A stretch of DNA of 64,000 bases, taken from positions 1 through 64,000 of the forward strand of contig JAGAAS010000062.1 in the NCBI GenBank assembly GCA_017615125.1, read 5' to 3'. Under the pieces are notes generated by a model. The model was not told the origin of the DNA and searched no databases. It saw only the letters and a program-made list of their open reading frames with translations. The first letter of the stretch is position 1. The number at the start of each line of letters is the position of its first letter. Positions 9,071 to 39,043 of this stretch are shown here, piece after piece. A program made the translations under genes and the position numbers. The stretch comes from Bacteroidaceae bacterium. Its GTDB lineage: Bacteria > Bacteroidota > Bacteroidia > Bacteroidales > Bacteroidaceae.

Positions 9071-9128
9071 CTTTCTGTCATAGAGCTTATTATAGACGAA
9101 CTATCTGGATTGTCATTTACCAGAGGTA

Positions 9129-10940: not shown

Positions 10941-10998
10941 ATTTGTGCAATGAATGTTTTTTACTCAGAAAAAGCAGAAGGAATAAAAGTCAACGTTC

Positions 10999-12792: not shown

Positions 12793-12839
12793 ATTCTTCC
12801 TTTTCTTTATCATAGTAAATGGAATATGTTTTTTACACA

Positions 12840-15953: not shown

Positions 15954-15971
15954 CTTTTTCGGTCCTCCTCG

Positions 15972-17777: not shown

Positions 17778-17793
17778 AGTAGTGGTTTTTCTT

Positions 17794-19593: not shown

Positions 19594-19609
19594 ATTTTTT
19601 TCCTTTCTT

Positions 19610-21181
19610 CTATTTATAATATGGGTTCTGGATAAGAAGCGGATTGTTTTCCAACTCGTCTTCCCATACAGGAAGGAAGAGAGCGTTGTTGTCAGAAAGA
19701 ACAGAACGGAACCAGCTGGTGCTGGCCTGCTTGTTAAAGTCAAGCAACCTAGCAAGGAGGAACGACTCCTTGTACTTAAATCCGTCGCGGCGTCCAAAGC
19801 GGAGCATATCGTACCACGCCTTTCCTTCGCCAGCAAATTCTGTTGCACGCTCATTAAGCAGGCATTCCAACAGTTCAAATTCGGTTGTGTTGGCGGGGTC
19901 GATGTCAACGTCGCCCAGATTGGCGCGGTTGTGAATCTGATTGATGAGAGCTACAGCCTCTGGCCAACGGCTCGAGCCTTGCAGAATCAATGCCTCGGCT
20001 TTCATCAGAACAACGTCGGCCACACGGTAGATAATAAAGTTGGGGTCGTAATGCTCACTGGTGCGCTTTTCGGTTAAGACACCCGACCCGAAATACTTCC
20101 AGCAATAACCTGTTTCAGCGGATACGTAGGCATTGGGCATGGGACAATAGAAGCCTCCATACAACGTGCGCACCTCTTCAACCATATGTTGCCGAGTGTA
20201 GTTTATCTCGTCAATGAACATTTCTGTCATCTTCTTCGAGAAGGCATATACACGTGAAGAACTGCTATTGTCGAACAAATAGGGCAGATTGTTCAGCTGC
20301 TTTTCCTCCTCGTCCCACTGCAGCTCAAAGATAGATTCGTTGGAGTTGCCGGGATTGAAGATAGAAAACCAAGAGGCATGTGAAGGCGTTGCCAGCAACG
20401 TAGGGGCATAAGGCGACGTGGAATGAAGCAGCATGTCGCAATAGCGCTCGGCAGCCGCATAATCCTCACTCCAAAGAGAGACGTCGGCCATCAGAGCATA
20501 GAGAGCCCAGCGTGTGGCACGTCCTTTGTTTTCCCAGCGCTTGTTGAAGTATTCTTTCGCAGCACCTGACTCAAGAGCCGCTGTGATGTCTTTTTTGATT
20601 TGGGCAATGACATCAGCTTCGGACGACTGCCCCACATGATAGCTTTGCGAGTCGTCTTCGTACGGTTCGAGGATGAGGGGGACGTCACGCCAGTTACGGA
20701 CAAGATAGAAGTAGCTGAGTGCCCGAAGAAAACGGGCTTCCGCCTTGTGGGCATTCATCATGTTCTCGTCATACGTGTCGTCGTTTGCCAAAGCCTTGTC
20801 GGCATTGGCTATGACACCGTTTGCCACATTTATGACTTCGTAGAAAGGCCCCCAATTGGCAATGTTCCTATCGGTTTCCTTTATGCGAAATTCCTGAAGA
20901 CTGCTATAGGCACCGCGGCTGAACATATGCCCGGCACGTAGCTCTCCCAACGGGAGAAGCTGGGTGGTTACCATCTGCCGATAATAGTAATAGCCGCCAT
21001 TTAACATGGCTTCTACCTCCTCTTTCGACGACCAATAATAGTCGCTTACTTGGTCGTTTTGTGGATAAACCTCAAGCCATTCTGTGCACGAAGTCTGAGA
21101 CAAGGCAAAGATGAGCACAACGAAGGAAAACCTGAAAATATTCGCAAAGGAAAATTTCTTATTCTTTCTCTTTCTTTCCAT
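19610..21181 (-). CDS. SusD/RagB-family lipoprotein (pair 2)
   Basis: 523-residue SusD protein. The signal peptide is long and basic (MERKRKNKKF...) and ends at lipobox SQTSC (Cys 32). It contains the standard AEARFLRALSYFYLVRNWRDVPLI helix near 150, and WPEAVALINQIHNRA plus the C-terminal RATEFAGEGKAWYDMLRFGRR motif near 440-470 of typical SusD proteins. Operon position directly follows SusC-2 (12 bases). Confidence 0.95.
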   Translation of the reverse strand: MERKRKNKKFSFANIFRFSFVVLIFALSQTSCTEWLEVYPQNDQVSDYYWSSKEEVEAMLNGGYYYYRQMVTTQLLPLGELRAGHMFSRGAYSSLQEFRIKETDRNIANWGPFYEVINVANGVIANADKALANDDTYDENMMNAHKAEARFLRALSYFYLVRNWRDVPLILEPYEDDSQSYHVGQSSEADVIAQIKKDITAALESGAAKEYFNKRWENKGRATRWALYALMADVSLWSEDYAAAERYCDMLLHSTSPYAPTLLATPSHASWFSIFNPGNSNESIFELQWDEEEKQLNNLPYLFDNSSSSRVYAFSKKMTEMFIDEINYTRQHMVEEVRTLYGGFYCPMPNAYVSAETGYCWKYFGSGVLTEKRTSEHYDPNFIIYRVADVVLMKAEALILQGSSRWPEAVALINQIHNRANLGDVDIDPANTTEFELLECLLNERATEFAGEGKAWYDMLRFGRRDGFKYKESFLLARLLDFNKQASTSWFRSVLSDNNALFLPVWEDELENNPLLIQNPYYK

Positions 21182-21193
21182 TTTCTTTCTTTT

Positions 21194-24100: not shown

Positions 24101-24460
24101 GACTTGGGATGCTGAGACAACCACTTCTCCCAGCGTCTGCGTGTCCTCGGCCATAGTCACATCGATAGTGCTTTGCCCTGTGTAAGCAAACGTCTGTGTC
24201 TTCATGCCGATGTAGGAGAACACGATGGAGAGCTTCCCCTCGTTCTCGGGAATGCGCAGGCTATATTCACCGTTGAAGTTGGTGATAGTGCCGTCAACGA
24301 CACGGTTCTGCGTGTTGTAGATGGAGACGTTTACTCCTATGGCAGGCTCCTTGTCGTCGCCAAACATCTCATAGACATGTCCCGTGAGCATCCTCTGGGC
24401 AGAGAGTTGAAAGCTGAAAGCCGAAAGGCAGAGCAGTAACAATAATATCTGTTTTTTCAT
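21194..24460 (-). CDS. SusC-family TonB-dependent transporter (pair 2)
   Basis: 1088-residue outer-membrane importer; start at 24460 is chosen because MKKQILLLLLCLSAFSFQLSAQ is a normal signal peptide, and the longer frame adds an unlikely leader. The carboxypeptidase-like domain (MLTGHVYEMFGDDKEPAIGVNV) runs about 22-105, followed by a TonB-box-like GEVVVSASQV, the plug with IRIRGTATLNTSADPLIVINGVRY and EVLKDAASTAIYGTAGANGVLLI, and the barrel ending in LSCGVTINF. A run of nine G (minus strand, 21675-21683) encodes part of a GGGG stretch late in the barrel and could be a slippage site. It lies 32 bases after the first FAS1 gene. Confidence 0.96.
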   Translation of the reverse strand: MKKQILLLLLCLSAFSFQLSAQRMLTGHVYEMFGDDKEPAIGVNVSIYNTQNRVVDGTITNFNGEYSLRIPENEGKLSIVFSYIGMKTQTFAYTGQSTIDVTMAEDTQTLGEVVVSASQVHKSEMGITDREQTAATQRIKLDEIVEISPVTSVEEALQGRLAGVDILASGDPGAKNSIRIRGTATLNTSADPLIVINGVRYNTTIDDSFDFATANNEDYADMLNLSPYDIESIEVLKDAASTAIYGTAGANGVLLITTKTGTKGKPRFTFSTKFSAKYEPHSIPMLDGKEYVAFIEDAIWNTANAKGVSTSAALLELLYDTPEINFNKDWRYFNEYNVSTDWLSTVVQDAYTTDNNFSMSGGGEKATYRFSLAYADEDGTTIGTNLDRFSTTLNIGYRFSDKLRVDADFSFAETNKQANWTDRVRSEAMLKMPNKSPYWIDDETLQPTSRYFNRQNSREFQGAFTGSNSFHPIAMAAESYNNSLQQEEKMNFRINYDILPGFTYTGYVSMKFITIKNRAFLPQVATGVTMDSPYANQSTDAYSDNLALQTENKLIYRHNWDDVHNLVATGVWRTSDSRNSNYTNTISGVASAHASDPSTNGLVVSRGSGQSQVRSVNGIVGLNYTLLNRYIVSTTLNMEGNSSLGKANRWGLFPSFGLAWHMKEEAWLSDVDWLSTFKLRTSYGQSGASPSGTAPYMGTYSALGDGYMDNPAIVPVRVQLNNLKWQTATEYDGGFDLGFFEDRLTTTFDIYYKYVTDLLQRRINVPTTTGYNSQGNTIEYFNSGEMSNTGWEFRIDYTALDTKDWKLSLNYNIARNINRIEKLPENLPESTYSLSNGTYAQRIIEGAPVGSFFGYRYLGVYDNTQETYARDAEGNVMTDIDGKPVVMKNGTFVCFPGDARYEDVNHDGVINQSDIVYIGNSNPVVTGGGGFTLRYRKVSLTTFLHYRLGQKIVNQARMNSEAMYGTDNQSLSVLRRWRSEGDAANTEIPRALWRYGLNYLGSDRFVEDCSFLRLKTLSLSYNLPKDFCRKVSINSANMFLTGYDLFTWTNYTGQDPEVTLPSNVTSIAVDNAQTPRSRRLSCGVTINF
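21675..21683 (-). repeat. G9 homopolymer inside SusC-2
   Basis: Nine C on the plus strand (nine G in the coding sense) within codons for VTGGGGF. Loss or gain of one base would shift the frame in the last sixth of the barrel. Confidence 0.9.
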
Positions 24461-24492
24461 AATTGCAATCTGGTTGAATCGGTTTTCAAAAA

Positions 24493-26844
24493 TCAAAACA
24501 TCCCTTCGATAAACTGCACACATCCGTCGTTGAAGACAAAGGGCAGGTAATGGTAATCAGGGCAGAAGTCTATTTCGCGGTTACTGTCGAGCAGGCGGGC
24601 TGTGAGCTTGCTTCCCTTATCGGCAATAACGACTTTCACCGAGCGATAAGTGACGCGGCTGGTAGCCTCGTCGTAAATCTCTTCGGTGTTAAGCGTTTCC
24701 ATTCCCTTGGAGGTATCCTCGGCCCAGCCGAGATAGGGATAGTTGGTGATGCCTGCGCTGGAAAGAGGGATGAAGAACTGTTTGAGATAAGCCTGCAGGC
24801 TTTCCATATCGAAGACAACGATGCAGTCGAACAGGTTCTCCCCTGCCTCCAGCTTTTCTGCATCAAACGTCATTCCCGGTATGGCGTCAGCCTTGATAGC
24901 TTTGGTAACAGCATCGTTTGTGGGAATGAGCATCAACTGCATGTCGCCTTCCTGGAAGAAATTGTACTTTGCGCCGGTATACATCTCTGCCGTGATGAGC
25001 AGGTTCGTAAAGGCATAGTAGGGTAGCGACTCGTCAATCTTGTTATTCTCAGCCATCTGCTGGAAGCTCTTGTAGACGGTGAGGCTAGGCATTCCGACAA
25101 ACATAGCGCCCTCGTAGCTGTAGGCTTTGCCGTTGCTCCACGTGCCGTCGTCGCGGTAGGATTTCAATTCGTGGAAGGGCAAGAACACCTCTTCGTCGGT
25201 GCGCTGCTGGGGATAGATGCGCTCGTTGAAGCGGAAACTGTTGGAGATTTTTCCGTCCTGCACATACCAGTAGAAGCAGACATCGGGTGAGAAAGCGCGG
25301 AAAACTTGCTGCTTGCCGCTCACGCTGTCGAGCTCGGTGTCGGTGCAGGTGCTTTGCGAGAGGTCTACTAAGTGAGCATACGAGGCACTTGTCTTGAAAT
25401 CGGCACCTAAAGCCCGTCCGTCGCGCACAAGGTATTCGTTCCTAGCATCGTAGGAGATACCCATAGCCTCCACCTGGCTGTTGTCGGGCATAAGCGAAAG
25501 CATGCGAGTCTCGTCGCTCCACAACGTATTCTGAATCTCCCCGATGGAGGTAAGCATCATCAGATAGTAGCTGAAAGCCTTGTACTGATAGGCAGGACCT
25601 GTGACAGCCGCAAACATTGCTGGAACTGCCAGTTCCTCGCATCCGTAGAGCAAGCCGTTTTCGCAGAGGATGCGGTACTTCTGGGGCACAGCGTCGAGGT
25701 CCACGTTGATGACCGTTCCGTAGGAGTTTTCAATGTCGCCGCGCCTGAGTTCCTCGGGGAAGGCAATGTCATCGACGTACACGCAGTTGAACAGCAGCTT
25801 TTGTACGCTCTCGCGGCTCACCTGACTGAGGGAAGCGTAGCCGCCCTTTGCCCAGTAGTTGTTGAAGAAGTTGTCGAGCGCTGCATTTGTCGGAGCAAAA
25901 ATGCTGTATCCTACGCTCGAGAGTGTCGTCAGCTTGCTATAGTCGGTGCTGGGCCATTCACAAGCAATGTTTGCCATAGGCTTGGTGAACAAATGCTGGT
26001 AGAGCCGCTCTCCGTTGCCGTATTCCTGCGTTAGGTCAGGGTCGTAGGCATAGTATTCGTACTGCCGGTAGAGGGCGAGGAACTGGCTGAAGTTTTCGTC
26101 GGCACGCAGCTCGTCGAAGATTGTATTCAGGGGACGCAAAACGTGGTCTATCTCATGCACATAGCCATTCTTCGTAATCTGGTTCCCCTTTGTCACCGCA
26201 GCATTTGCTACGTTGAAGCCGATGCCCGTAGGGTTCCATTCCGTGCCGGGAAAGAAGTAGCGATAGTTCTCTTCGGCGTCTATCAGCTTGGTGTTGAAGT
26301 ACTTGTAGGAGAAGGTTGGCAGGAATCGCTCCTGATGATAGATGGTGACTTCCGTCTGTCGCGTGTTGTCAAACTCCGTCGTGTTCCTGTCGCGGCTTTT
26401 TGTGCGATGCTTGTAGTACATGCCCGCATTGATTTCCTTTTCCTCGTCCGTCACATCGTCTCCTTCTTCGGGGCGGAAGTTGATGAGCTTGTCGGCGCTG
26501 TAGGAATAGTACATCAGATGGAATCCTATGAGCTTGTCCAGCTCGTCGATGTCCATCTCGTCGATGCTGCTGATGCCGTTTTCGGCAAAGTAGGCTCGGA
26601 AGGCGTCGTCGTTGGGTGCCATCACGGTAACGATGCTCTTGCCGTCGACCATATCGCGATAGCCCGCCCTTTCGATGCCGCGAAGGAAGATGGAGTAGTT
26701 GCCGTCGGCCTCAAGCACCTCGTAGCAGTTCCCCTTGATCCAGTCAGGCCGCCGGTAGTATTCCGACATGTAGTCTTGGCAGGCTGTCAGCACCGTTGTC
26801 AGCACTAGCAGGGCGCTCATCCACCGGGTTTTCCTGTTTTCCAT
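24493..26844 (-). CDS. FAS1-domain surface lipoprotein A
   Basis: 783-residue lipoprotein with lipobox LTAC (Cys 22). FAS1 units can be picked out at about 45-250 (YSIFLRGIERAGYRDMV, VTVMAPNDDAFRAYF, GYVHEIDHVLRPL), about 255-400 (FSQFLALYRQYEYY, YSIFAPTNAALDNFF) and near 600-783 (MLIPTNDAVTKAI, then a closing HYLPFVFNDGCVQFIEG). It is the first gene of the SusC-2/SusD-2 set, 118 bases after PL1, with repeat copy C in the gap. I saw no good -7 box in the gap, so readthrough from the GH28 promoter is possible. Likely a surface glycan-binding protein; not an enzyme by any motif I can see. Confidence 0.82.
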   Translation of the reverse strand: MENRKTRWMSALLVLTTVLTACQDYMSEYYRRPDWIKGNCYEVLEADGNYSIFLRGIERAGYRDMVDGKSIVTVMAPNDDAFRAYFAENGISSIDEMDIDELDKLIGFHLMYYSYSADKLINFRPEEGDDVTDEEKEINAGMYYKHRTKSRDRNTTEFDNTRQTEVTIYHQERFLPTFSYKYFNTKLIDAEENYRYFFPGTEWNPTGIGFNVANAAVTKGNQITKNGYVHEIDHVLRPLNTIFDELRADENFSQFLALYRQYEYYAYDPDLTQEYGNGERLYQHLFTKPMANIACEWPSTDYSKLTTLSSVGYSIFAPTNAALDNFFNNYWAKGGYASLSQVSRESVQKLLFNCVYVDDIAFPEELRRGDIENSYGTVINVDLDAVPQKYRILCENGLLYGCEELAVPAMFAAVTGPAYQYKAFSYYLMMLTSIGEIQNTLWSDETRMLSLMPDNSQVEAMGISYDARNEYLVRDGRALGADFKTSASYAHLVDLSQSTCTDTELDSVSGKQQVFRAFSPDVCFYWYVQDGKISNSFRFNERIYPQQRTDEEVFLPFHELKSYRDDGTWSNGKAYSYEGAMFVGMPSLTVYKSFQQMAENNKIDESLPYYAFTNLLITAEMYTGAKYNFFQEGDMQLMLIPTNDAVTKAIKADAIPGMTFDAEKLEAGENLFDCIVVFDMESLQAYLKQFFIPLSSAGITNYPYLGWAEDTSKGMETLNTEEIYDEATSRVTYRSVKVVIADKGSKLTARLLDSNREIDFCPDYHYLPFVFNDGCVQFIEGMF

Positions 26845-26895
26845 TGTTCGATGTTGTTTTATGATGATTGTTGTCTTTCAAAAGTTCGTTTCAAT

Positions 26896-26985
26896 ATGAA
26901 GAAAGAATCTCGCCGTATGAAGAAGGGAAAAAATTTTTTCGAGAAGGAAAAAAATTTTTTCCTCAAAGAATAATTTTTTTCCCTT
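26896..26985. repeat. Modular intergenic repeat, copy C
   Basis: Inverse module order: ATGAAGAAAGAATCTCGCCGTATGAAG first, then GAAGGGAAAAAATTTTTTCGAGAAGG and a second AAAATTTTTT. It covers the last codons and stop of PL1 (GKKIIL is encoded by repeat sequence) and could attenuate transcription between PL1 and the FAS1/SusC genes. Confidence 0.8.
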
Positions 26986-28612
26986 TGTAAATGTATATGC
27001 CTTCTGAGGGATTCACTACGGGACGACCGCAAAGGTCATAGTAGACATCCATCTCCTCTCTGTCCAACTCTGCAATCTCAATGGATGTATCAAGGTCGTT
27101 TACCCCTTCTCCTGTCACAAACTCATAGTCGCCCAGTTCCTGAGCCACGATGTGCTGCACAAGGCTGTTCAGATAGTTCTCGAGATTGGTGTACCCATTT
27201 TCAGCCACAGCTTTTCCGTCGAGCGGATATTTCGGATTCAGCCCGTGAGCCTCTTCCCAAGCATCGGGCATACCATCTCGGTCGGTGTCGAGAGGACATT
27301 CCGTGCTGTTGAGCGTGGGCCAAGGGCTCCAATCGTCGCCGGCGTTGCGCGGCTTCAGGTCGTTTTGGCTGTCAATAATGCCCGGATAGCTGCGCCCCGA
27401 GGGGTCGCTCGTCCCCTGAAAGGTGTAGGAGCCGTTGCGGCACTCCCTCACCAAACGCTCGTCGATTATATCTCGAACCAACGAGCAGCCTGCTGTATTC
27501 ATCACTTTCTCGAAAGCAACCTGAGCCGAGTGCGTGGTAACGGTGCCGGGAGTGTTTGGCTCAGAAAGTCGCATAGCTGCCCGTTCGGCGGCAGTAATAT
27601 CGGAACATTGCACCGACTTGGTGTTCCAGTTGTCAGCCGTAGTGGCCTTTTCCAGCGAGTTGGTGGGTGTCTTATATGTATCCTTCAATGAACTGCACCA
27701 GTTGCCTTCTATATAGTATTTACCCAGGCGCGGGCGCGCGCTATCGTCGTTGTTTACGCCTATACTGATAAGCATAGCCCGTCGGTCGCCTGTCGTGGTG
27801 CCTGGACCTGGCTTGTAGTAGCAGTTGACTATGTTCGCATCCATTCCTTCGGCTCCGTAGCAGCCCACGACTTCTCCATAGTTATAAATCACGTTGTTTC
27901 GAAGGTCAACATTATCCCTTCCGTCCGTGATATCCATAGCGCCCAGTCGGGGAGTGCGGCTGCTGTGATGGGTGAGGAAGTTATGGTGGAACGAAGTCTT
28001 TGCTCCGCCCCAGATGCCTCCGTAGCCGTGTCCGCCTTTCTGGTGATTGCTGTAGCGGAGGCTTTCCGAAACGATGCACCATTGAAGCGTAAGGTTTTCG
28101 TCACCATAAAACGACACACATTCATCCACACTCCATGAACATGAGCAGTGATCGATGATGATATTCTTTATACCTCGTCCCCCCAAGGCATCGTCTTCGA
28201 CATCTGGATGAAGATCACCCATACGGATGCGGAGGAAACGCATGATTATATTGTTTGCGTTGACGTGTACTGGATATCCTGCAATACAGATACCATCGCC
28301 AGGAGCCGTTTGTCCGGCAATCGTCAGGTTTCCGTTGTTGATATTCAAGTAATCCTTTAGGAAAATAGTTCCACTCACGTCAAAGACGATGGTGCGTGTC
28401 TCCGTTTTGTTGATAAAGTAGCGGAGCGATCCGAAGGGAGGATTCGTAGCATCATCTTCAAGGTTCGTGACATGATAGACAACGCCTCCTCGCCCGCCTG
28501 TCACGTAGCGCCCGTGTCCTTCGGCACCCGGGAAAGCTGGCATATGGTCGGCTTGAACGGTAAGAATGGGAAGCAAAGCCAGAATGATTGTGCCGGCTAT
28601 CAGCTTTTTCAT
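26963..28612 (-). CDS. Pectate lyase, PL1 family
   Basis: About 549 residues from the start at 28612 (an upstream ATG at 28636 adds eight residues). Signal peptide ends at VQA. The parallel beta-helix at about 25-400 opens with the PL1 motif FPGAEGHGRYVTGGRGG; NIIIDHCSCSWSVDE and HHNFLTHHSSRTPRLG carry the expected calcium and catalytic Asp/Arg residues. It cleaves polygalacturonate by beta-elimination. Near 445 a calcium-binding DTDRDGMPDAWEE motif is followed by a sorting-like tail (VYYDLCGRPV...GIYIYKG) whose last codons fall in repeat C. It is 37 bases after GH28 in the same operon. Confidence 0.93.
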   Translation of the reverse strand: MKKLIAGTIILALLPILTVQADHMPAFPGAEGHGRYVTGGRGGVVYHVTNLEDDATNPPFGSLRYFINKTETRTIVFDVSGTIFLKDYLNINNGNLTIAGQTAPGDGICIAGYPVHVNANNIIMRFLRIRMGDLHPDVEDDALGGRGIKNIIIDHCSCSWSVDECVSFYGDENLTLQWCIVSESLRYSNHQKGGHGYGGIWGGAKTSFHHNFLTHHSSRTPRLGAMDITDGRDNVDLRNNVIYNYGEVVGCYGAEGMDANIVNCYYKPGPGTTTGDRRAMLISIGVNNDDSARPRLGKYYIEGNWCSSLKDTYKTPTNSLEKATTADNWNTKSVQCSDITAAERAAMRLSEPNTPGTVTTHSAQVAFEKVMNTAGCSLVRDIIDERLVRECRNGSYTFQGTSDPSGRSYPGIIDSQNDLKPRNAGDDWSPWPTLNSTECPLDTDRDGMPDAWEEAHGLNPKYPLDGKAVAENGYTNLENYLNSLVQHIVAQELGDYEFVTGEGVNDLDTSIEIAELDREEMDVYYDLCGRPVVNPSEGIYIYKGKKIIL

Positions 28613-28649
28613 CGAATCTTGTCTTTCGTTTTTCATAGGATTTTTTTCA

Positions 28650-30035
28650 TCAATTCATGCTTTTCCATATACTGTCCTGAGCCGTGAACACAACATTCTG
28701 GAAGCGGATGCGGGCAGTGTCGATGGCCTCAAAAGGTCTATCGCCCGTAATGTGCACGTTGCTGAGCTCTACATCGTGCAGCGGCATCTCGGGCAATCCC
28801 TGCATGATGCCGACACTTCCTGCAGAGGAGCAGGTAATTCCGTCCATATAGATGTGATGGAACGAGGGAGTAGTTTCGTCAACGGGTTTTTCTTCTCTGT
28901 CTCCTTTCGTGAAATAATAGAGGTCAAATAAGATGGCCCTGCTTCGGATGGAATTCATATGGATGTTGCTGCACCAGATATTCTCAACTACACCTCCACG
29001 CCCTCGGCAACTCTTGAAACGCAGCCCGTTATCCGTACCCGTAAACGTGCAGTTCGAAACTTTTATATTACGCACTCCTCCACTCATCTCGCTACCTATC
29101 ACAAAGCCTCCGTGCCCGTTGTAGACAGTACATCCGTCAATCACGACCCGTTCTGTAGGTACACCGCGTTGGCGTCCCTCCTCGTCTTTTCCCGATTTGA
29201 TGCAAATAGCATCATCACCCGCATCGAGGAAACAATCCTTCACCAGCACGTTGCTGCACGACTCAATGTCAAGCGCGTCGCCGTTGGCGGCATACGATTC
29301 GTTGAGCATCTTCACTCCATCGATGATCACATCCCGGCAAAGAACAGGATGCAGGCACCAGGCAGGGCTGTTGCGGAAAGTAATATCCTTTAATAGGACC
29401 TGACGGCAATTCTCCAAGTCCACCATCACAGGGCGAAGGGTGGATTTCTCCATAGGGTACCACGTTTTGCCGTCCTCGTTGAAAAATCCTCCGCGCCGAG
29501 TGAAATCGCGCCAAAGAGAAGGGCTTACGCCCATTTGCTTCACAGGACGCCAATAATCGCCATTTCCATCGAAAATTCCTTCTCCCGTGATAGCAATATT
29601 CTCCGCATCTGTTGCGCTGATTGGCGAAACGGCTTTCTCTCGTTTCTGACCTTCATACCAACGCTCAATGACGGGATAGTCCTCGGGGCTTGTTGAGAAC
29701 GATACAATAGCCCCTTTACTTAAATGCAGTTCCACATTGCTCTTCAGCTCTATAGGAGCGCTCACCCAAGCACCGGCAGGTATCACTACTGTCCCACCGC
29801 CCAAAAAAGCTACCGAGTCGATAGCCTGCTGGATGAAAGCGCTGTCGGTAGCAAATGCCTCGATGGTAAGTGCTGGAAAGACGGGTGCCTCAACAGGCTG
29901 CATATCGAAGGGAAGTGCCTCGAAATAGCGTGAATAATCAGCAGACGACTCTCTCTGATCATTGCACGAAACCATCAGAAAAAGACATCCTGCCAAAAGA
30001 GGCAAACGACTCAGCCAAGTGTATTTGTTTCTCAT
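28650..30035 (-). CDS. Polygalacturonase-type GH28 lipoprotein
   Basis: 461 residues from the start at 30035, chosen because it gives lipobox LMVSC (Cys 24); the long frame upstream crosses the promoter. Right-handed beta-helix with all GH28 blocks: NGDALDIESC, DAGDDAICIKSG (catalytic Asp pair), NGHGGFVIGSEMSG (His) and LRFKSCRGRGG (Arg/Lys substrate site). It hydrolyses galacturonan or rhamnogalacturonan backbones at the cell surface or in the periplasm; endo or exo action is not readable. It heads the leftward operon, controlled by the divergent promoter region at 30075-30131. Confidence 0.92.
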   Translation of the reverse strand: MRNKYTWLSRLPLLAGCLFLMVSCNDQRESSADYSRYFEALPFDMQPVEAPVFPALTIEAFATDSAFIQQAIDSVAFLGGGTVVIPAGAWVSAPIELKSNVELHLSKGAIVSFSTSPEDYPVIERWYEGQKREKAVSPISATDAENIAITGEGIFDGNGDYWRPVKQMGVSPSLWRDFTRRGGFFNEDGKTWYPMEKSTLRPVMVDLENCRQVLLKDITFRNSPAWCLHPVLCRDVIIDGVKMLNESYAANGDALDIESCSNVLVKDCFLDAGDDAICIKSGKDEEGRQRGVPTERVVIDGCTVYNGHGGFVIGSEMSGGVRNIKVSNCTFTGTDNGLRFKSCRGRGGVVENIWCSNIHMNSIRSRAILFDLYYFTKGDREEKPVDETTPSFHHIYMDGITCSSAGSVGIMQGLPEMPLHDVELSNVHITGDRPFEAIDTARIRFQNVVFTAQDSIWKSMN

Positions 30036-30074
30036 ATTCAGGCGTAGATTGAAACATGTATTATTAATCGTTTG

Positions 30075-30131
30075 CAAAATTAGAATGACACGCGCATACG
30101 TAGGTGCATTTTTTTTTTTAATAGGAGGAGT
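30075..30131 (-). promoter_or_regulatory. Leftward pectin-operon promoter with two half-sites
   Basis: Minus strand: -7 box TAATTTTG (30082 to 30075). Half-site AATGCACC (30110 to 30103) begins 28 bases upstream of the -7 box, and ACTCCTCC (30131 to 30124) begins 21 bases further up. Both follow an A-tract. Each matches AGTC(A/C)ACC at six of eight positions, in the same geometry as the rightward promoters. Confidence 0.6.
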
Positions 30132-30189
30132 TTTTAAAGAAATCCCTTTCAAATACTCTTCTTGAAACAAAAAAACAAAAACGTCAAAA

Positions 30190-30246
30190 AGTCAACCCTT
30201 ATAAAAAAATAGTCCACCTCCGTTGATTTTTTCTGCCCTACATTTG
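30190..30246 (+). promoter_or_regulatory. Rightward pectin promoter with AGTC(A/C)ACC direct repeat
   Basis: AGTCAACC at 30190-30197 and AGTCCACC at 30211-30218 are direct repeats 21 bases apart, each after an A-tract. The proximal copy starts 28 bases before the -7 box TACATTTG (30239-30246) and sits where a -33 box would be. This fits an activator-dependent promoter; the hybrid two-component protein at 34757-39043 is the likely activator. Confidence 0.7.
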
Positions 30247-30287
30247 CATCGTAAAAAAATGTATGTCTAACTAATCATAACAAAAAC

Positions 30288-32513
30288 ATGAAAAAATTTA
30301 CTCTTTTCGCTAGTGCATTGCTTGTAGCACTTTTTGCTTCAGCTAATGTAATTGTTGTGGAAACCCCGGAAGACTATGCAGCTGCTTATGGTAGCACCGT
30401 TGATGGTGACACTCTGATGCTTTACAGCGGCGAATATGTCAACCAGAATTTCCCCGCAGGAAAGACCATCACCGTTATGGCTCCCGACACCTGCGAAGTG
30501 TTCCTGAATGGTGAAGTAAGAGGTGACGGTGTCGGCGATGGTTCTGGCATCGTCTTCGAGAATGTCATTATCGGTAATGGTGCTTCCTACCTCTTTAACT
30601 TCACACCTGTTGGGAATATCAAGGTCATCAAGATGAAGAACACCGTGCTTGAGAATGTTTCTCGCTGCACGTTTTATCTTGGAGGTGACGCAGCTACGAC
30701 CTCAGTCGAACTGGTAGAGTTTGACAACTGTGTTCTTCGCAACCTGAACACGGGCAACTGGAACATGTCGTGGCATACTACTCCTATTTATAAATGGGTG
30801 ATTAACGAGAGTACCCTTTACGGCAACGATGGAATGGAATGCTTCTACAACCCCAGAGGAGCAACGGACAAGAGCCATGAGTTCATCTTCACGAAGAACA
30901 CCATGTACAGCGGCTGCCGCGATGCCAATCGTACGATTTGCAACGTTTCCGGCAACTTCTCGGGCGAGGAGTGCGTAGTTAAGTTCACCGACAACATCAT
31001 CGTTTGCCCCGAAGGCAAGAGCGCAGGCAAACTGTGGGACATCCGCGCAGGCTATTGGGATGTTACTGTTGCCAACAACCTGATCATTGGCTGGCTGATT
31101 CCTGATGTAAACGAGGACATCATGGATGCAACCGTTGAGAACAACTACACGCTCGAGGATCTCGGCATTGCTTCCATCGGCGGTATCTGGGCTGACGCTG
31201 CCAATGCTGACTTCACCCTCTACAAAGGCTACACAGCTCTTGACGGAAAAGCTTCCGATGGTGGCGTGCTAGGCGATAGCGAGTGGCTCAAGGAGGTTTC
31301 TGGCAACATGTTCACCCTCACGCAGGGCGTAAGCGAAGGTCAAGACGATATGGGTACCGTTAGCGGCCCCTCCGGCAACATTCCCGAGGGAACCGACGTT
31401 ACTCTCGTTGCTACTCCCGCCTACGGCTATAAGTTCGTGAAGTGGGTGAATGCTGCTGGAGAAACTGTCAGCGAGGATGCCACCTACACTTTCACAATGA
31501 GCGGCAACACCACTGTTTATGCTGTATTTGACGCCCTCACGATGTACGCCCTCAACATTACCTGCACCAACGGCGGAAACTACAATCTTTCTGACAACGG
31601 GCAGGATGGCAAGTACCCCGAAGGAACGGAAGTTGTCGTTTCGGTACGCACGAACCTCATCACCACCTTCACTTATGGCTATATGGCCGATATGTCTGAA
31701 TTCTATTATGGGAACGAGTTCGTTGTCGTAATGGATAAAGACAGAGACATCTGCCTCGAGTTCGAGCAGATTGACTATATCTGCGGATGGGACTTCACCG
31801 ACGGTAACGGCGCAAGCGGCGGCGCAACCCAGAATCGTCCTGCCGACTGGCTCAGCAAGGACTACAAGGATCCCGAGTACGTTCCTCAGCTCGACCTCTA
31901 CTACACGCTCTATCCCGATGCACCTTGGACAAGTGGCTGGTGGAACCGCACCGATACCTACACCGCTGCCGTAACCTGGCTGCGCTGCACCGACAAGGGT
32001 GACGGCACCGAGTTCAAGACCCCCGAAGGCGCTATGGACAGCACCAAGTACTACACCAATCAGGGCTTCTATTGGCAGACGGCTGTTTGCACGAAGGGCT
32101 ACGTGAGCGACATCTCCTTCAACTTCAAGATGAAGCGTACCTACATGGGTCACTACGACTACTTCGTACAGTACAGCTACAACAAACTGTCGTGGGAGAC
32201 TGTTGATACCGTTACCACAACTGGCGGTTGGCAGGATTTCTGCGACACTATCCCCAACACGGCAAACAAGGAGATGGTTTACATCCGTCTGATTCCCGAC
32301 GTTACCAGCGGCTATGATGCAAACCGTATCTTCGACGTATACGGCGTTTATGTGGCTGACATCTTCCTTGTAGCCGACGTTGACCCGAACAGCGTTGAGA
32401 CCATCGAGCTTCCCGAGACGGAAACTGGTTACTTCGACCTGCAGGGCCGTCAAGTAGCCGTTCCTCAGAAGGGCATCTATATCAAGAACGGCAAGAAGGT
32501 GCTTGTGAAATAA
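30288..32513 (+). CDS. Secreted beta-helix protein of unknown function
   Basis: 741 residues, signal peptide 1-19 (FASAN). Residues about 25-330 resemble the DUF4957/DUF5123-type pectate-lyase-like beta-helix found in pectin loci; no PL1 or GH28 catalytic motif is visible, so a binding role is more likely than catalysis. An InlB/Listeria-Bacteroides repeat lies at about 350-420 (GNIPEGTDVTLVATPAYGYKF, TYTFTMSGNTTVYAVF) and a weaker second copy near 425-490. A jelly-roll-like module (GWDFTDGNG...) runs about 497-695, then a sorting-like tail YFDLQGRQV...GIYIKNGKKVL. Codon use is markedly biased to C-ending codons, suggesting high expression. It has its own strong regulated promoter and terminator. 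Confidence 0.75.
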   Translation: MKKFTLFASALLVALFASANVIVVETPEDYAAAYGSTVDGDTLMLYSGEYVNQNFPAGKTITVMAPDTCEVFLNGEVRGDGVGDGSGIVFENVIIGNGASYLFNFTPVGNIKVIKMKNTVLENVSRCTFYLGGDAATTSVELVEFDNCVLRNLNTGNWNMSWHTTPIYKWVINESTLYGNDGMECFYNPRGATDKSHEFIFTKNTMYSGCRDANRTICNVSGNFSGEECVVKFTDNIIVCPEGKSAGKLWDIRAGYWDVTVANNLIIGWLIPDVNEDIMDATVENNYTLEDLGIASIGGIWADAANADFTLYKGYTALDGKASDGGVLGDSEWLKEVSGNMFTLTQGVSEGQDDMGTVSGPSGNIPEGTDVTLVATPAYGYKFVKWVNAAGETVSEDATYTFTMSGNTTVYAVFDALTMYALNITCTNGGNYNLSDNGQDGKYPEGTEVVVSVRTNLITTFTYGYMADMSEFYYGNEFVVVMDKDRDICLEFEQIDYICGWDFTDGNGASGGATQNRPADWLSKDYKDPEYVPQLDLYYTLYPDAPWTSGWWNRTDTYTAAVTWLRCTDKGDGTEFKTPEGAMDSTKYYTNQGFYWQTAVCTKGYVSDISFNFKMKRTYMGHYDYFVQYSYNKLSWETVDTVTTTGGWQDFCDTIPNTANKEMVYIRLIPDVTSGYDANRIFDVYGVYVADIFLVADVDPNSVETIELPETETGYFDLQGRQVAVPQKGIYIKNGKKVLVK

Positions 32514-32543
32514 GCAGACAAATCTTCTTGCTTGACAGACAAT

Positions 32544-32580
32544 GCGGAGAGGCTTCGGCTTCTCCGCGTTTTTTTTTTCT
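32544..32580 (+). terminator. Terminator after the beta-helix gene
   Basis: GCGGAGAGGC at 32544-32553, TTCG loop, GCTTCTCCGC at 32558-32567 and a T10 run. Confidence 0.9.
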
Positions 32581-32690
32581 TCATAATTATTTTTCCCTTC
32601 TCCAAAAAAATTTTTCGAGAAGGGAAAAAATTTTTTTCTTTCTTCATCTCGCGCGCTTCTTTCTTCATACGGCGAGATTCCTTCTCCATA
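32579..32690. repeat. Modular intergenic repeat, copy D
   Basis: Nearly the same as copy B: CCCTTCTC, A7T5, GAGAAGGG, A6T7, CTTTCTTCATCTCGCGCG, CTTCTTTCTTCATACGGCGAGAT and CCTTCTCCATA. It lies directly behind a strong terminator, so termination is not its only role here. Confidence 0.85.
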
Positions 32691-32728
32691 TTTCAGTATT
32701 TATTTATGAAGGGTCGTCATCGGGGATT

Positions 32729-32785
32729 TTTCATCCTATTGCGCTAAAAAGTCCACCCATACGAAGAGATTGGTCTGTATCTTTG
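32729..32785 (+). promoter_or_regulatory. Promoter of the second CE8 gene with shared half-site
   Basis: AGTCCACC at 32750-32757, preceded by an A-tract, starts exactly 28 bases before the -7 box TATCTTTG (32778-32785), as at 30211. A weak second half-site (TTTCATCC at 32729-32736, five of eight) lies 21 bases further upstream. Confidence 0.65.
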
Positions 32786-32812: not shown

Positions 32813-34615
32813 ATGAAACGCATAGCATCCCTATTACTTTGCCTGACGACAGTCCTTGCCGTGCAGGCGCAGGCTGTCAGCCCGAAGGTTCCTTTCGACG
32901 GGCAGACGGACCTTCCCGTCAACCTCAACATTGTTCTGCAGAGCGACGTAGCAATGAAACTCGGCACCGACAGCTGCTTCCTCAACGGCGAATATATTGT
33001 GCCTAGCACCGTTACTTCATACGCCGCCATCTTCATTCCTGGCGAGCTGCAGTATGCGACAGACTACACGCTGGTGGTGCGCGACGGAGCCTTTGCGAGC
33101 AAGGCTTCGGATGAGCCCCTGAAGGGATGTACGGTGAGCTTTTCCACAGCAGGTCCTAAGATGCGCGTGTTCGATGCCATCGTTGCTGCCGACGGGACGG
33201 GCGACTATACCAGCCTTCGCGCTGCTGTAAAAGCCGCCCCCACAAACCGCACGCAGCCTTGGCTCATCTTCGTAAAGAATGGCGACTACGTGGAGCTCAT
33301 CCGCATCGCAAATGATCAACCCTACATCTCGATTGTCGGAGAGGACCCCGACAAGACTATCGTCGAATTCTCCATCACATCCAACGCGGGGCACGAGCGA
33401 GATCAGGCCAACTTCAAGGAAGCCGAAGGACGCGGGCCTGTCCTCTGTACGCTGGCTCCCAACACCTATATTCATAACATTAGCATCATCGACTCTTGGG
33501 GCTACGTGAATCAGGCAGGTCCTCAAGCGCTGGCGCTGGGTTCCTACGCCGATAGGTTCTGCCTTTTCAACAGCAAGCTGAAAAGCTATCAGGACACGTG
33601 GCAGACAGGGTCGGACGAACATAGGCACTATGCCAAACGAAGCTACATTGAAGGGGCTGTCGACTTCATCTACTGCTCGGGCGACGCCGTTTTCGACAGC
33701 TGCACCATCGGTTTCTGCCGCAACGGCTCCGTTCTCACCGCTCCCAGTCACGGAGCCGGCGTGAAGTACGGATACGTGTTCCGTGACTGCAACATTGTCT
33801 CGAGCCGCCCAGGCACAGCCCGCACGAACAACACCTTCGGGCGCCCTTGGCACAACAATCCACGCTGCTCGATAATCAACACCACCCTCTCGCGCGACAT
33901 TACGATGAGCGACGCGGGATGGATAAACCACATGGGCGGACTTCCTGCCGTGTTTGCCGAATACAACACTATGAACTATCAGGGAAAGCCTGTAGATCTG
34001 AGCAAACGGAACAACTGGTATTGGCGAGGCGGAAGCGAGCAGAATCCCGAAGAGACGTGCATCGCCAAAAGCATCCTCACGAAGGAAGAAGCCGACGCGC
34101 TGACGGTGAAGACCGTTCTCAGTGGCAAGGACAACTGGAAACCCGAGATAATCACAACAGAACTTGACGCACCTGCTGTCTTCTACAAGGACAACTTGCT
34201 GACGTGGACTTCCAACAAATCGGCCATTTGCTACGAAGTGCTGCGCAACGACGATTTTCTGATGTTCACCACCGAAACTCAATATACATTCGAAGGAGAA
34301 GCATCGGAATACACCATTCGAGCCGTCAACCAGTATGGAACCTTAGGACATAAGTCCGGCATTCCTACCTACGGTGATGCTACTTCCGTCAAGTCCCTCA
34401 CGGCGCAAAACAACATTGAAGTGTCTTTTAACAAAGGCCAGCTTGTGGCGACTGGCTTTGCAGGACAAGCCACACTTGAGATTTACTCGCTTGGCGGTAT
34501 CCTATGCTCAAGAAACACCCTTTTTAGCGGAGAGCCTGTTAGCATCTCCGACGGGAAGCCCGGTATAGCAAGAATTGTCTGCTCAGACGGCATTCGAGTT
34601 CTCAAATTCAAATAA
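32813..34615 (+). CDS. Pectin methylesterase, CE8 (second copy)
   Basis: 600-residue secreted CE8 enzyme. Signal peptide 1-20 (VQAQA), Ig-like domain at about 22-110, catalytic beta-helix at about 120-440 with QALALG, SYQDTW, GAVDFIYCSG (nucleophile Asp) and FGRPWHNN, then a fibronectin-like module and a C-terminal beta tail related to sorting domains (LEIYSLGG...). FGRPW matches the canonical CE8 motif better than the FGRAW of the first copy. Under its own regulated promoter; a terminator follows. Two methylesterases with different surface loops may serve differently substituted pectins. Confidence 0.94.
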   Translation: MKRIASLLLCLTTVLAVQAQAVSPKVPFDGQTDLPVNLNIVLQSDVAMKLGTDSCFLNGEYIVPSTVTSYAAIFIPGELQYATDYTLVVRDGAFASKASDEPLKGCTVSFSTAGPKMRVFDAIVAADGTGDYTSLRAAVKAAPTNRTQPWLIFVKNGDYVELIRIANDQPYISIVGEDPDKTIVEFSITSNAGHERDQANFKEAEGRGPVLCTLAPNTYIHNISIIDSWGYVNQAGPQALALGSYADRFCLFNSKLKSYQDTWQTGSDEHRHYAKRSYIEGAVDFIYCSGDAVFDSCTIGFCRNGSVLTAPSHGAGVKYGYVFRDCNIVSSRPGTARTNNTFGRPWHNNPRCSIINTTLSRDITMSDAGWINHMGGLPAVFAEYNTMNYQGKPVDLSKRNNWYWRGGSEQNPEETCIAKSILTKEEADALTVKTVLSGKDNWKPEIITTELDAPAVFYKDNLLTWTSNKSAICYEVLRNDDFLMFTTETQYTFEGEASEYTIRAVNQYGTLGHKSGIPTYGDATSVKSLTAQNNIEVSFNKGQLVATGFAGQATLEIYSLGGILCSRNTLFSGEPVSISDGKPGIARIVCSDGIRVLKFK

Positions 34616-34709: not shown

Positions 34710-34739
34710 TTTGATTATCAAGTGAAATGCTTATTTTTG
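34710..34739 (+). promoter_or_regulatory. Promoter of the hybrid two-component gene
   Basis: -33 TTTG at 34710-34713, 18-base spacer, -7 box TATTTTTG at 34732-34739, and the start codon 17 bases later. It has no AGTCCACC half-site, so it looks constitutive, as expected for a sensor. Confidence 0.65.
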
Positions 34740-34756
34740 TCCCAAAATAACCACCA

Positions 34757-37700
34757 ATGATGAAAAACTCTCTTCTTCTGACGATAGGGCTGCTGCTATG
34801 GGTACTAGTTATAAAAGGTGCCGAGACAGACTACATGTCTTCCCAGCCTTTCGTCAGCGTCGCCCACTTTGCTGCCGACGACGAGTCCATGCAGGGACGT
34901 TCAACCAGCATTATGCAGGACAGTCAGGGATTCATCTGGGTAAGTTCGTTCAACGGGCTTAACCGCTACGATGGTTACCAGTGGACAAAATACAAGTCAG
35001 GGCGCGGCAAGAACTCGGTGCTTGCCACAAACCGCATTAACAATATTGTCGAGAACAGTCAGGGCGACATCTGGTGCATAACCGTTAACGGGCTTTATGT
35101 GTTCAACAAACGACAGGAGCAGTTCTACGACGTCCAGCCTGTACTCGACAGTCTGGCAGGACACAAGGCACATGTCGCAAAGATTTGGCCTCTCAAAAAT
35201 GGCATCACGTGGATGCAATCGGAGGATGGATTCGTTTTCCGTATCTTAGACAACCATCCCGAGGAGGGTAGCCGGCTCATCCACTTCCGTAACGATGCAG
35301 CTGGAAACGGCTCCACATCGTCTACTTCTATAGAAATTTACGGTGCCGTTCTTGACTATCAGAGCAACGAGTGGGTTCTTGGTAAGCAGGGCTGCTACCT
35401 AAACGGGAATGCTGAGCCTGCTAGCAAGGTCGTTTTTCGTCACATTGCACTGACAGAAGAGGGGCCATGGTTTATTTCATCTAACGGACGACAGATTGCC
35501 CATTACTGCAATGAAACACTCTCTTTCAAGGAATTCTTGCCAGAAAACTGCCGTGTCTACTTTTTCGGCATCGTAGGAGATTCACTTCTCCTGACAGCCA
35601 CAAACCGAGGACTTTACCGTTCGTTAATTGGCGGAGGAAGCCTCTCCCTCCTCACTTCGCAGGACATCCATAGTGTCTTCCTTGACAGCCACGGGGTGCT
35701 ATGGGGACTCTCCGAGCAAGAGGGCGTGCTGCGGCTTACCAGCGACGACAACTACGTCCACTGCAGGGCCGACAGGGTTATGCTGCCAGCTGACTTGTCC
35801 GACGAATTGCTGGCGCGTCGTTTCCATGAGGACTCTGACGGACAGCTCTGGCTCCTCTCGATGGGCAACAACGACATCCTTTATTTCGACACTCGCACAA
35901 ATAGCTTCAAGCGCCCCTATTGTCGCGAGAACCTCAACAGCAACACTTCCTCCTTCACCATTGACCGCCAGGGCAACGTGTGGTACCAGAGCGAGCGCAG
36001 TGTTGATATGCTCTCACTTCACAGCTGCCCCTTCCGCATCGACAACCGTTTCCGCAACCAAGAGGTACGTTCTCAGTTCATTGATTCCCAAAATCGGCAC
36101 TGGTATGGATTACGGGAAAACAAGGTCGTCGTCTGCGACAGCAATGGGACGGAACTGCAGCAGTTCGCTCTCCCAGGTACCATGTATTGCATCCATGAGA
36201 CGTCAGATGGCGTGGTTTGGATGGGTTCGCGCAACGATGGGCTTTTCCGCCTCACGCCTGAGGGTAACAGCTATTCCATTTCCCATTTCCTCCACGATGA
36301 TGAAGACATCACCTCGCTCAGCAACAACGCCATCTACACTCTATACGAGGATAGTCGAGGACACCTATGGATAGGCACTTTCGGAGGGGGCGTCAATCTT
36401 TGGGACAATGGGCATTTCATCCACCAGCAAAACAGACTGGGATACAACAGCGAGCAGCCCCAAACCATTCGCTTCGTCAGTGAGGTGAAGCCTGGCATCA
36501 TCGCCATCGCCTCTCGCGAAGGACTTTATACATACAGTACGGACTTTTCAAGGCCCGAGGATATCTGTATGTTTCACAATGCCAAGCGGAGCAATGACGA
36601 CACATGTCTTACTGACAACGACATCACATCGGTCTTAATGACTACCGACGGAACCCTTTACGTTTCCACCCAGAGCGGAGGTATCTGCCGTATGATCACA
36701 GACAACCTGCTCAGCAATGACATTCAATTTGAGAGTATCAGCAAAGAAGATGGCCTTGCCTCCGATGTAGCCTATAGCATTGTCGAAGACTATCAGGGCA
36801 TCCTTTGGGTTAGCAGCGAGCGAGCATTGTCGCGCTTGAGTGCCGACCACAAGACAATCACCATCTACGACAATTTCTCGTTTCCGACAGAAGTTGTCTT
36901 TTCTGAAGGCATTCCTCTCCACAAGGGCAATGAACTTGTGTTCGGTACTATGCAGGGAACAGTTTCCATAAATCCCACCGAACTTCGAACTGACATTTAT
37001 GTGCCACCTCTCGTCGTTGACAGCCATCTGGCTTCTTCCGAAGACGATCGTTCGGCAACCCTTCACTTTGCTGCCCTTGACTACCGTAATCGCAGACACT
37101 TGAAGTATGCCTATCGCATGGAAGGTGTTGATGCCGACTGGACAACGAGCAGCGAGAACTCCGTTACATATGTCAACCTACCCCCAGGAAAACATTTATT
37201 CCATGTTCGTTCCACTAATGCCGATGGCCAATGGACTGACAACGAGCAGATTCTCCCCATTTACGTCAAGCCCCGCTTCTACGAGCGGTTTTGGGGCATG
37301 TTGCTCATTCTGTTTGCCGTGTTCACTCTTATCACCCTCGCTGTCTACGAGGCAATGCGTCTCTATCGCCTGCGCCATAGCCTCACGGTGGAGCAAGAAC
37401 TGACGGATATGAAGATTCGGTTCTTTACCGACATTAGCCATGAATTGCGTACGCCTCTAACGCTTGTTGATGGCCCTGTGAGCGAGGTGTTGGAGGATAA
37501 AAGCCTTAGCGACCAGTCACGCTACTATCTTGAAGTGGTTCAGCGCAATGTACGTCGTATGCTTAATCTTGTCAACCAGATTCTTGACTTCCGTAAGTTG
37601 CAGAACCATAAAATGTCACTTCTGATAGAACCCATTGATGTACGTGACACTCTCTCTCGCATCATGGAGAACTTCAACGAAATGGCGGTGCAACATCATA

Positions 37701-39043
37701 TGTCGTTTTCTCTTCAGGCCTCTGACAATCTGCCCACCCTCTGGGCCGATCGGGATAAAATAGAGAAAATCTTCTTCAACTTGCTTGTCAATGCCTTCAA
37801 GTACACCGATGACGGAAAATCAATTACCATCAATGCCACTCAGCCTACATCAGATACGATAGCAATCTCTGTCAGCGACCAAGGAATAGGTATACGGAAA
37901 GAAGACATCAGCAAGCTGTTTACCCGCTTCGAAACTGTTCTCACCGACAACACATCGCGACCCTCTTCGGGCATTGGTCTTTCATTAGTCAAGCAGTTCT
38001 CTGATTTACATCACGCCAACGTTTCCGTTGACAGCAAAGTGGGCGAAGGAAGCACCTTTACCATTACCTTCCGAACAGGCAAAGATCATTTCTCCAACGA
38101 CAAACAAGTTGAGTTCTTCGCTGCTGATACAGCACACCTGGAAGCAACTGACGAGACTTCCCCAGTCGACCTGAATGATAAAAATCCCCTCTCAGAAGTA
38201 ATTGGAACCGAAGAAGACGAAGAGGACGAACGCCCCAAAATCCTCATCGTTGAAGACAACGACGAACTGCGTGATTTCATAGAGCATATCCTCTCCGATA
38301 CTTACCGCATCACGCTTGCAACCGACGGGGAAGAAGGCTTGCGAATGGGCCGTGAGCTATGGCCCGATCTCATCATCACAGACATCATGATGCCTGTCAT
38401 GGACGGTTTCCAGATGATTCAGCAAATAAAGGAAGACGCCGACATCTACGCCGTGCCAATAATCGTCCTTACTGCCAAGGGTACGCTTGACGACCGAATA
38501 CACGGCGTTGAACTCGGCATCGACGACTATGTGCTCAAGCCCTTCAGCGCCAGCTATTTGAAGGCACGTGTCGCTGCTCTTTTGGAACAGCGACAAAGGC
38601 TCCGTCAACGATTCATGCAGATGCTTTCCGATGGTGACAAGGCTCTTGTACGGCGTAGTCTTGAACCCGATATGCCCGTCATTACTCCTGCTGACGAACT
38701 GTTTCTCCAAGATGTTATGGCATTTATGGAAAAGAATATGGACAATGCCGACATCACTATCGACGACTTTGCTAGTGCCGTCAAGCTTGGTCGCACCGTC
38801 TTTTATAATAAGCTGAAAGCCACAGTAGGACTCACGCCCATCGACTTCGTGCAAGAGATGCGCATCAAACGTGCTGTCCAGCTCATGAAAACAGACAACT
38901 TCACCATTTCCGAAATTGCCTACCAAACAGGTTTCAATGACCCGAAATACTTTAGTCGCTGCTTCAAAAAACACCTTGGAGAAACACCTACTGACTATCT
39001 GAAGAAACTGAGGGCTGAAAAGGAAACGAATGCCGACTCGTAA
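34757..39043 (+). CDS. Hybrid two-component system sensor/regulator (HTCS)
   Basis: 1428-residue single-protein two-component system spanning the inner membrane. Signal region 1-22; 14-bladed Reg_prop periplasmic sensor at about 35-740 (repeats such as DSQGFIWVSSFNGLNRYDG, DSRGHLWIGTFGGGVNLWD); Y_Y_Y domain at about 755-840; membrane helix near 845-870; HisKA with DISHELRTPLTL near 895; HATPase with NAFKYTDDG and GIGLSLVKQF; receiver domain with VEDND and phospho-acceptor in LIITDIMMPVMDG near 1210; AraC-type helix-turn-helix at about 1310-1420. All catalytic residues are present. It sits beside the two enzyme arms it would control. The ligand is most likely an oligogalacturonide or rhamnogalacturonan piece, by analogy with other pectin HTCS. 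Confidence 0.96.
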   Translation: MMKNSLLLTIGLLLWVLVIKGAETDYMSSQPFVSVAHFAADDESMQGRSTSIMQDSQGFIWVSSFNGLNRYDGYQWTKYKSGRGKNSVLATNRINNIVENSQGDIWCITVNGLYVFNKRQEQFYDVQPVLDSLAGHKAHVAKIWPLKNGITWMQSEDGFVFRILDNHPEEGSRLIHFRNDAAGNGSTSSTSIEIYGAVLDYQSNEWVLGKQGCYLNGNAEPASKVVFRHIALTEEGPWFISSNGRQIAHYCNETLSFKEFLPENCRVYFFGIVGDSLLLTATNRGLYRSLIGGGSLSLLTSQDIHSVFLDSHGVLWGLSEQEGVLRLTSDDNYVHCRADRVMLPADLSDELLARRFHEDSDGQLWLLSMGNNDILYFDTRTNSFKRPYCRENLNSNTSSFTIDRQGNVWYQSERSVDMLSLHSCPFRIDNRFRNQEVRSQFIDSQNRHWYGLRENKVVVCDSNGTELQQFALPGTMYCIHETSDGVVWMGSRNDGLFRLTPEGNSYSISHFLHDDEDITSLSNNAIYTLYEDSRGHLWIGTFGGGVNLWDNGHFIHQQNRLGYNSEQPQTIRFVSEVKPGIIAIASREGLYTYSTDFSRPEDICMFHNAKRSNDDTCLTDNDITSVLMTTDGTLYVSTQSGGICRMITDNLLSNDIQFESISKEDGLASDVAYSIVEDYQGILWVSSERALSRLSADHKTITIYDNFSFPTEVVFSEGIPLHKGNELVFGTMQGTVSINPTELRTDIYVPPLVVDSHLASSEDDRSATLHFAALDYRNRRHLKYAYRMEGVDADWTTSSENSVTYVNLPPGKHLFHVRSTNADGQWTDNEQILPIYVKPRFYERFWGMLLILFAVFTLITLAVYEAMRLYRLRHSLTVEQELTDMKIRFFTDISHELRTPLTLVDGPVSEVLEDKSLSDQSRYYLEVVQRNVRRMLNLVNQILDFRKLQNHKMSLLIEPIDVRDTLSRIMENFNEMAVQHHMSFSLQASDNLPTLWADRDKIEKIFFNLLVNAFKYTDDGKSITINATQPTSDTIAISVSDQGIGIRKEDISKLFTRFETVLTDNTSRPSSGIGLSLVKQFSDLHHANVSVDSKVGEGSTFTITFRTGKDHFSNDKQVEFFAADTAHLEATDETSPVDLNDKNPLSEVIGTEEDEEDERPKILIVEDNDELRDFIEHILSDTYRITLATDGEEGLRMGRELWPDLIITDIMMPVMDGFQMIQQIKEDADIYAVPIIVLTAKGTLDDRIHGVELGIDDYVLKPFSASYLKARVAALLEQRQRLRQRFMQMLSDGDKALVRRSLEPDMPVITPADELFLQDVMAFMEKNMDNADITIDDFASAVKLGRTVFYNKLKATVGLTPIDFVQEMRIKRAVQLMKTDNFTISEIAYQTGFNDPKYFSRCFKKHLGETPTDYLKKLRAEKETNADS

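Follow-up and report, generated by a model that had tools for sequence, protein, structure and literature searches.

Probable tandem half-site operators at three promoters of a Bacteroidaceae pectin locus and the adjacent HTCS as their probable reader

How might the divergently oriented genes of a pectin locus be switched on together? The question is raised by a stretch of 64,000 nucleotides (C24:1-64000, hereafter the window) from a Bacteroidaceae genome, G000, which comprises 3.03 Mb in 107 contigs and is incomplete (87% complete). Two presumed target genes of the locus lie on the forward strand. The first, designated 'pel' by its position only (30288..32513, +), encodes a secreted protein of 741 aa that NCBIfam and PDB sequence searches matched to no lyase family. 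The second encodes a pectinesterase (PME; 32813..34615, +; Pfam PF01095) and is followed by the gene of an HTCS (34757..39043, +). On the opposite strand, a divergent gene run extends from a GH28 gene (30038) down to the gene of a BNR protein (7808) (7808..30038, -). It includes SusC/SusD relatives, a second TonB receptor, a second pectinesterase, and one protein with a weak similarity to PelZ that falls far under the cut-off. This run is probably a single transcription unit; within it, the -7 box upstream of GH28 is the only TAnnTTTG occurring shortly upstream of any ORF by the criteria of the box survey given below. The nearest genome carrying the same locus is G015. The window also harbours a dispersed repeat, whose copies (26897-26952, 40658-40709, 48389-48434, 55383-55461, and 59743-59832) match the same two places on a G015 contig.

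Probable operator sites at three promoters

The original prediction placed AGTC(A/C)ACC half-sites 28 bases before the -7 boxes at 30239 and 32778, starting at 30211 and 32750, respectively; these coordinates and distances were found to be exact. In the pel promoter, the proximal half-site AGTCCACC (30211..30218, +; TGTCCACC in G015) is located 28 bases before the box TACATTTG (30239..30246, +; TAAATTTG in G015), and the second copy noted 21 bases further upstream is indeed present, as the distal half-site AGTCAACC (30190..30197, +; AATCAACC in G015), 49 bases before the box. The PME promoter has the same proximal half-site, AGTCCACC (32750..32757, +; AATCCACC in G015), 28 bases before the box TATCTTTG (32778..32785, +; same letters in G015). 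Its distal half-site TTTCATCC (32729..32736, +; AAACCCCC in G015), 49 bases before the box, is degenerate and weak, with 5/8 matches, and had not been part of the prediction. The divergent GH28 promoter displays the same geometry on the other strand, as had been proposed. There, the distal half-site ACTCCTCC (30124..30131, -; ACTCCTCT in G015) and the proximal half-site AATGCACC (30103..30110, -; same letters in G015) each exhibit 6/8 matches to AGTC(A/C)ACC, each is preceded by an A-run, and they stand 49 and 28 bases before the box TAATTTTG (30075..30082, -; TATCTTTG in G015). The pel, PME, and GH28 boxes, for which TAnnTTTG was placed from sequence alone, lie 27-41 bases ahead of the start codons.

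Could A-rich promoter DNA simply share a few octamers by chance? The octamer taken by itself is compatible with this: AGTCMACC has 6 matches in the window against a shuffle mean of 3.36, and 13/100 shuffles reach 6. It is thus not enriched there, and the strength of the motif resides in its geometry. With no mismatch, AGTCMACC-N20-TANNTTTG occurs at two places in the 3.03-Mb genome, both at this locus, and AGTCMACC-N13-AGTCMACC at a single place. When up to two mismatches were allowed, the former pattern was found at 23 places, compared with 16 for the reversed pattern, which indicates that the loose pattern is mostly noise. More generally, loose patterns (2-3 mismatches) are about as frequent as their reversed controls, a result that also leans towards chance, and they are unable to list a regulon. 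The comparison of the promoters with one another argues the other way. The pel and PME upstream regions share, in register, 8 consecutive identical bases; 23 of 20000 dinucleotide shuffles did as well, and 246 of 20000 did when any two of the three promoters were allowed to form the pair. Across all three promoters, 17/60 columns are identical, the A-runs contributing to this number, against a shuffle mean of 4.4, and none of 5000 shuffles reached this value.

The motif is also not scattered at random positions, a point on which the original prediction depended. Among 19 genus genomes, TCMACC-N15-TCMACC-N20-TANNTTTG with zero mismatches was only found at the pel promoters of G000 and G015; the best place in a further genome, G018, has 2 mismatches.

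Conservation of the register across loci and families

In G015, all three promoters have retained the half-sites with their A-runs, the period of 21 bp, and the distance of 28 bases, and the spacers diverge. Identical columns between the two genomes amount to 39/48 in the half-sites versus 46/93 in the spacers (Fisher p 1.8e-4, the column classes having been defined after the motif was seen), with 14/16 identical half-site columns for pel, 10/16 for PME, and 15/16 for GH28.

A profile (R1) derived from the six promoter sequences of G000 and G015 was applied to three loci found via the pel protein (L177, goat; L178, roe deer; L179, yak), in which pel is 61-66% identical. The HTCS is about 49% identical in L177 and L178, and the L179 sequence ends before the HTCS. 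R1 detected the pel promoter in 3/3 loci (22.1-24.1 bits) and the divergent promoter in 3/3 (26.0-26.5 bits). The PME promoter was detected in L178 (13.7 bits) and missed in L177, where the site was added by eye. At these promoters, the three loci differ little from one another, and they should be counted as about one lineage. All 14 aligned promoters have T-N-C-A-C-C as the core of the proximal half-site and TA..TTTG as the letters of the box, and the distance from half-site to box is 28 in 9 of them and 29 in 5. When the proximal 8-mer was compared with upstream 8-mers, identity was highest at 21 bp (5.1/8), the next value being 3.5 at 24. In two of these loci (L177:12246-12311 and L178:12251-12316), the PME distal half-site sits in the stem of a hairpin that follows pel (GGGGACGGATAATCCGTCCCC).

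A search for the pel protein in 393 genomes of the order, its own genome included, also revealed its presence in three genomes of another family. In L192, the pair occurs at 49/28 in the pel and divergent promoters, and the PME promoter has no pair. In L193, the pel and divergent sites are at 28 and the PME site at 29. The pel promoter of L195 has CGTGAACC at both half-sites, exactly at 49 and 28, as part of a longer repeat whose period is 21, and the divergent gene of this locus is devoid of the pair. L194 stems from the same genome as L195 and represents a second copy, in which pel has neither a promoter of its own nor a pair. The core is less strict in this second family, with proximal half-sites including AATCCACT, AATCCACA, and CGTGAACC, and the six second-family sites score 12.6-25.7 bits with profile R2. 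The simultaneous change of both half-sites in L195 is as expected if one protein reads both.

Overall, the 21-bp pair was found in the pel promoter of 8/9 loci, in the divergent promoter of 7/8, and in the PME promoter of 5/6, in two bacterial families, so that the geometry is kept in orthologous pectin loci as anticipated. The half-sites form direct repeats spaced about 21 bp, as illustrated by the identity peak at this spacing and by the exact repeat in L195, and they are conserved in relatives upstream of genes of the HTCS-linked locus. The three-way identity of the promoters, the recurrence of the pair in register at independent loci, and the joint change of both half-sites at one of these loci make a chance origin extremely improbable; it is already contradicted by the R1 test loci and the second-family sites.

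Promoter logic and the proposed reader

In G000 and G015 sequence, 47 distinct boxes located upstream of ORFs were surveyed, and a TTG 21-23 bases before the box was present in 16/42 non-target boxes versus 0/5 target boxes, these being small numbers. The proximal half-site spans the bases 28-21 before the box, which include the position at which TTG is concentrated elsewhere. It had been proposed that this half-site stands in place of the -33 box, and the survey bears this out, since the half-site covers the TTG-enriched position and the targets have no TTG. A site that replaces or overlaps the upstream promoter element is the arrangement of class II-type activation. The promoter of the HTCS itself (34711..34739, +) was said to lack the sites; it has no half-sites and carries instead a TTG 21 bases before TATTTTTG (34732).

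The sites, their register, their conservation, and the absence of TTG at -33 are plain in the DNA, and a regulatory scheme can be proposed from them. The periplasmic sensor of the HTCS would bind a pectin oligosaccharide, upon which the HTCS would be phosphorylated. Two of its AraC-type output domains would then bind, from the same side of the DNA, the two half-sites (core T-N-C-A-C-C), which form a direct repeat with a 21-bp period, and the proximal half-site would substitute for the -33 promoter element. RNA polymerase would be positioned by TAnnTTTG, which presumably sets the start sites, and the location of the proximal half-site leads us to propose that initiation needs the bound regulator (class II-type activation). 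In this manner, the three operators would turn on pel, PME, and the GH28-to-BNR run together. The three sites are likely to be operators of the adjacent HTCS, at which two AraC-type domains bind in tandem and activate from -33.

The overlap of the site with the core promoter would also suit a repressor, either the HTCS or another factor, that blocks polymerase by occupying -33, induction then being a matter of release. A B. thetaiotaomicron HTCS, BT2391, is reported in the accessible text of PMC11253607 to repress its PUL. However, targets without a TTG at -33 suggest a need for help rather than blocking, and HTCS regulation is described as predominantly activation in the accessible part of PMC10766802. 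Repression is thus considered very unlikely, and activation by the HTCS is retained as the preferred reading.

The proposed reader combines a propeller sensor, Y_Y_Y, HisKA, HATPase, a receiver, and an AraC-type HTH in one polypeptide, all with Pfam matches above cut-off, and its REC-AraC part resembles the solved chain 12aw, an HTCS protein. Among the best 5 of 9 HTCS matches in G000, only the HTCS of the window is full length. A relative of its sensor at E 1e-100 or better was found in 1/18 other genus genomes, namely G015; within the genus, the sites too were found outside G000 in G015 only. As the whole locus is shared by G000 and G015, this co-occurrence of sensor and sites does not single out the HTCS. 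An HTCS is found within the stretch examined in 6/9 pel-homologue loci, and it is absent from the 20 kb examined around L193 and L194. In G259 (L134), a homologous HTCS whose AraC part is 60% identical adjoins a GH28 gene, the promoter of which has AATACACG and AGTCCACA at 49 and 28 bases (12.3 bits with R1, 10.3 with R2). L134 is the only one of 11 other family HTCS loci (L132-L142) that fits the 28/49 register. L136 has ATGCACG-N14-ATCCACC upstream of GH28, yet 62 bases before the box, a lone AATCCACC site that points away from the HTCS gene occurs in each of L137 and L138, and nothing convincing was found in the remaining seven loci. Half-site pairs in the intergenic DNA of these 11 loci are few, with 3 at 21 bp and 0-2 at other spacings. 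Sites of the AATCCACC type that face away from the gene occur upstream of other family HTCS genes at L136:9192-9165 (-), L137:11280-11325 (+), and L138:9489-9461 (-).

These observations also bear on whether the operators, although real, belong to another AraC-type regulator encoded elsewhere. The main rival reader is a stand-alone REC-AraC protein (G000:C32:25689-26456; 262 aa, L051:1498-2286 (-)), which has a close counterpart in G015, and a genome that is 87% complete leaves room for a regulator that was not seen. However, the C32 protein is unlinked to the locus and its HTH helices are clearly unlike those of the HTCS; the presence of an HTCS in the stretch examined around 6/9 pel homologues and the homologous HTCS of G259, whose neighbouring GH28 promoter shares the geometry, also count against it. 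Another regulator is thus an unlikely owner of the operators, and the HTCS is very probably their reader, as suggested by linkage and precedent.

Scans with R1 and R2 of the 19 genus genomes revealed no further clear target outside the locus. The best extra profile hit (C41:56701-56747) belongs to an operator-like pair with TATCTTTG in the same register (G000:C41:56748-56684, -; L118:14749-14578 corresponds to C41:56748-56577). The pair is followed by about 100 nt without ORF that end in a strong hairpin (fold z -3.8; 1/200 shuffles as good), and there is no ORF start nearby. With R1, the site scores 22.9 bits against a best of 15.9 in 17 genus genomes without an HTCS orthologue; with R2, the margin is thin (21.6 versus 19.1 in the same genomes). 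A fixed-register matrix over 1.04 Mb gave 44.8 for this site, 28.0 for fucI (see below), and 26.5 for the next non-orthologous locus. Its proximal half-site AGTCCCTC is poor and lacks the CACC core, and the site is located about 73 bases from the contig end. G015 matches the neighbouring gene only, with no conserved counterpart of the site, and Rfam returned one hit for this stretch, far under the gathering score. An extension of the HTCS regulon beyond the locus to a small RNA at C41 is a doubtful suggestion; if true, a pectin sensor would switch on a small RNA along with pectin genes.

The promoter of an L-fucose isomerase gene (C70:4989-4925 (-), L117), with AGTCAACC-N13-AATCCTCC-N20-TACTTTTG, looked like a fourth target and is not claimed as such. 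A direct-repeat regex found no pair upstream of fucI in 12 other genus loci, including G015, some of these upstream stretches being short or beginning inside the gene itself, and the profile scores of the fucI site (14.8 and 15.4 bits) are within the background of other genomes.

Comparison with known systems

E. coli AraC at araI1-I2 is an example of class II activation, in which two direct half-sites are about 21 bp apart and the proximal one overlaps the upstream promoter element. The operators described here resemble this system in both respects, with two direct half-sites at about the same spacing and the proximal one at the upstream promoter element. In contrast to AraC, a soluble sugar-binding activator, the proposed regulator is a membrane-bound hybrid kinase, and the promoters would be those of a Bacteroidota sigma factor with -7/-33 elements. 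According to the accessible text of PMC7366714, the sigma-ABfr promoter of Bacteroides has TAnnTTTG at -7 and TTTG near -33, the latter being documented in B. fragilis, and Flavobacterium johnsoniae is said to have shown no such -33 motif. The letters of the -7 box are common to all 14 aligned promoters, whereas the target promoters have no TTG at -33 and carry the proximal half-site there instead.

Within the HTCS family, response-regulator fragments bind promoter DNA once phosphorylated, as stated in the accessible part of PMC11253607. The predicted motifs of HTCSs take the form of direct repeats of 21 bp on average (Ravcheev et al. 2013, PMC3878776, accessible text), and the same source gives for HTCS_Rgu-1 of B. 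thetaiotaomicron (BT4111/BT4124, pectin) two 12-bp sites with a 9-bp spacer. As with HTCS_Rgu-1, a 21-bp direct repeat occurs here upstream of pectin genes and beside an HTCS with an AraC-type output domain. The genomes are other ones, the half-site is read here as T-N-C-A-C-C, and the likeness drawn concerns the architecture. An operator that is readable from sequence and traceable through two families yields, for one group of pectin HTCSs, a half-site code open to testing. Its strict register to the -7 box, where a -33 element would otherwise stand, would reveal the way in which HTCSs turn on Bacteroidota promoters and would aid the prediction of HTCS targets in uncultured rumen bacteria. 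Neither a fixed distance to the -7 box nor a replacement of the -33 element was described for an HTCS in the accessible texts of the literature searched. As direct repeats averaging 21 bp were already predicted for HTCSs in 2013, the operators of this locus belong to a known type, of which they are a further clear example, and what they add to HTCS_Rgu-1 is the register to the -7 box and the placement at -33.
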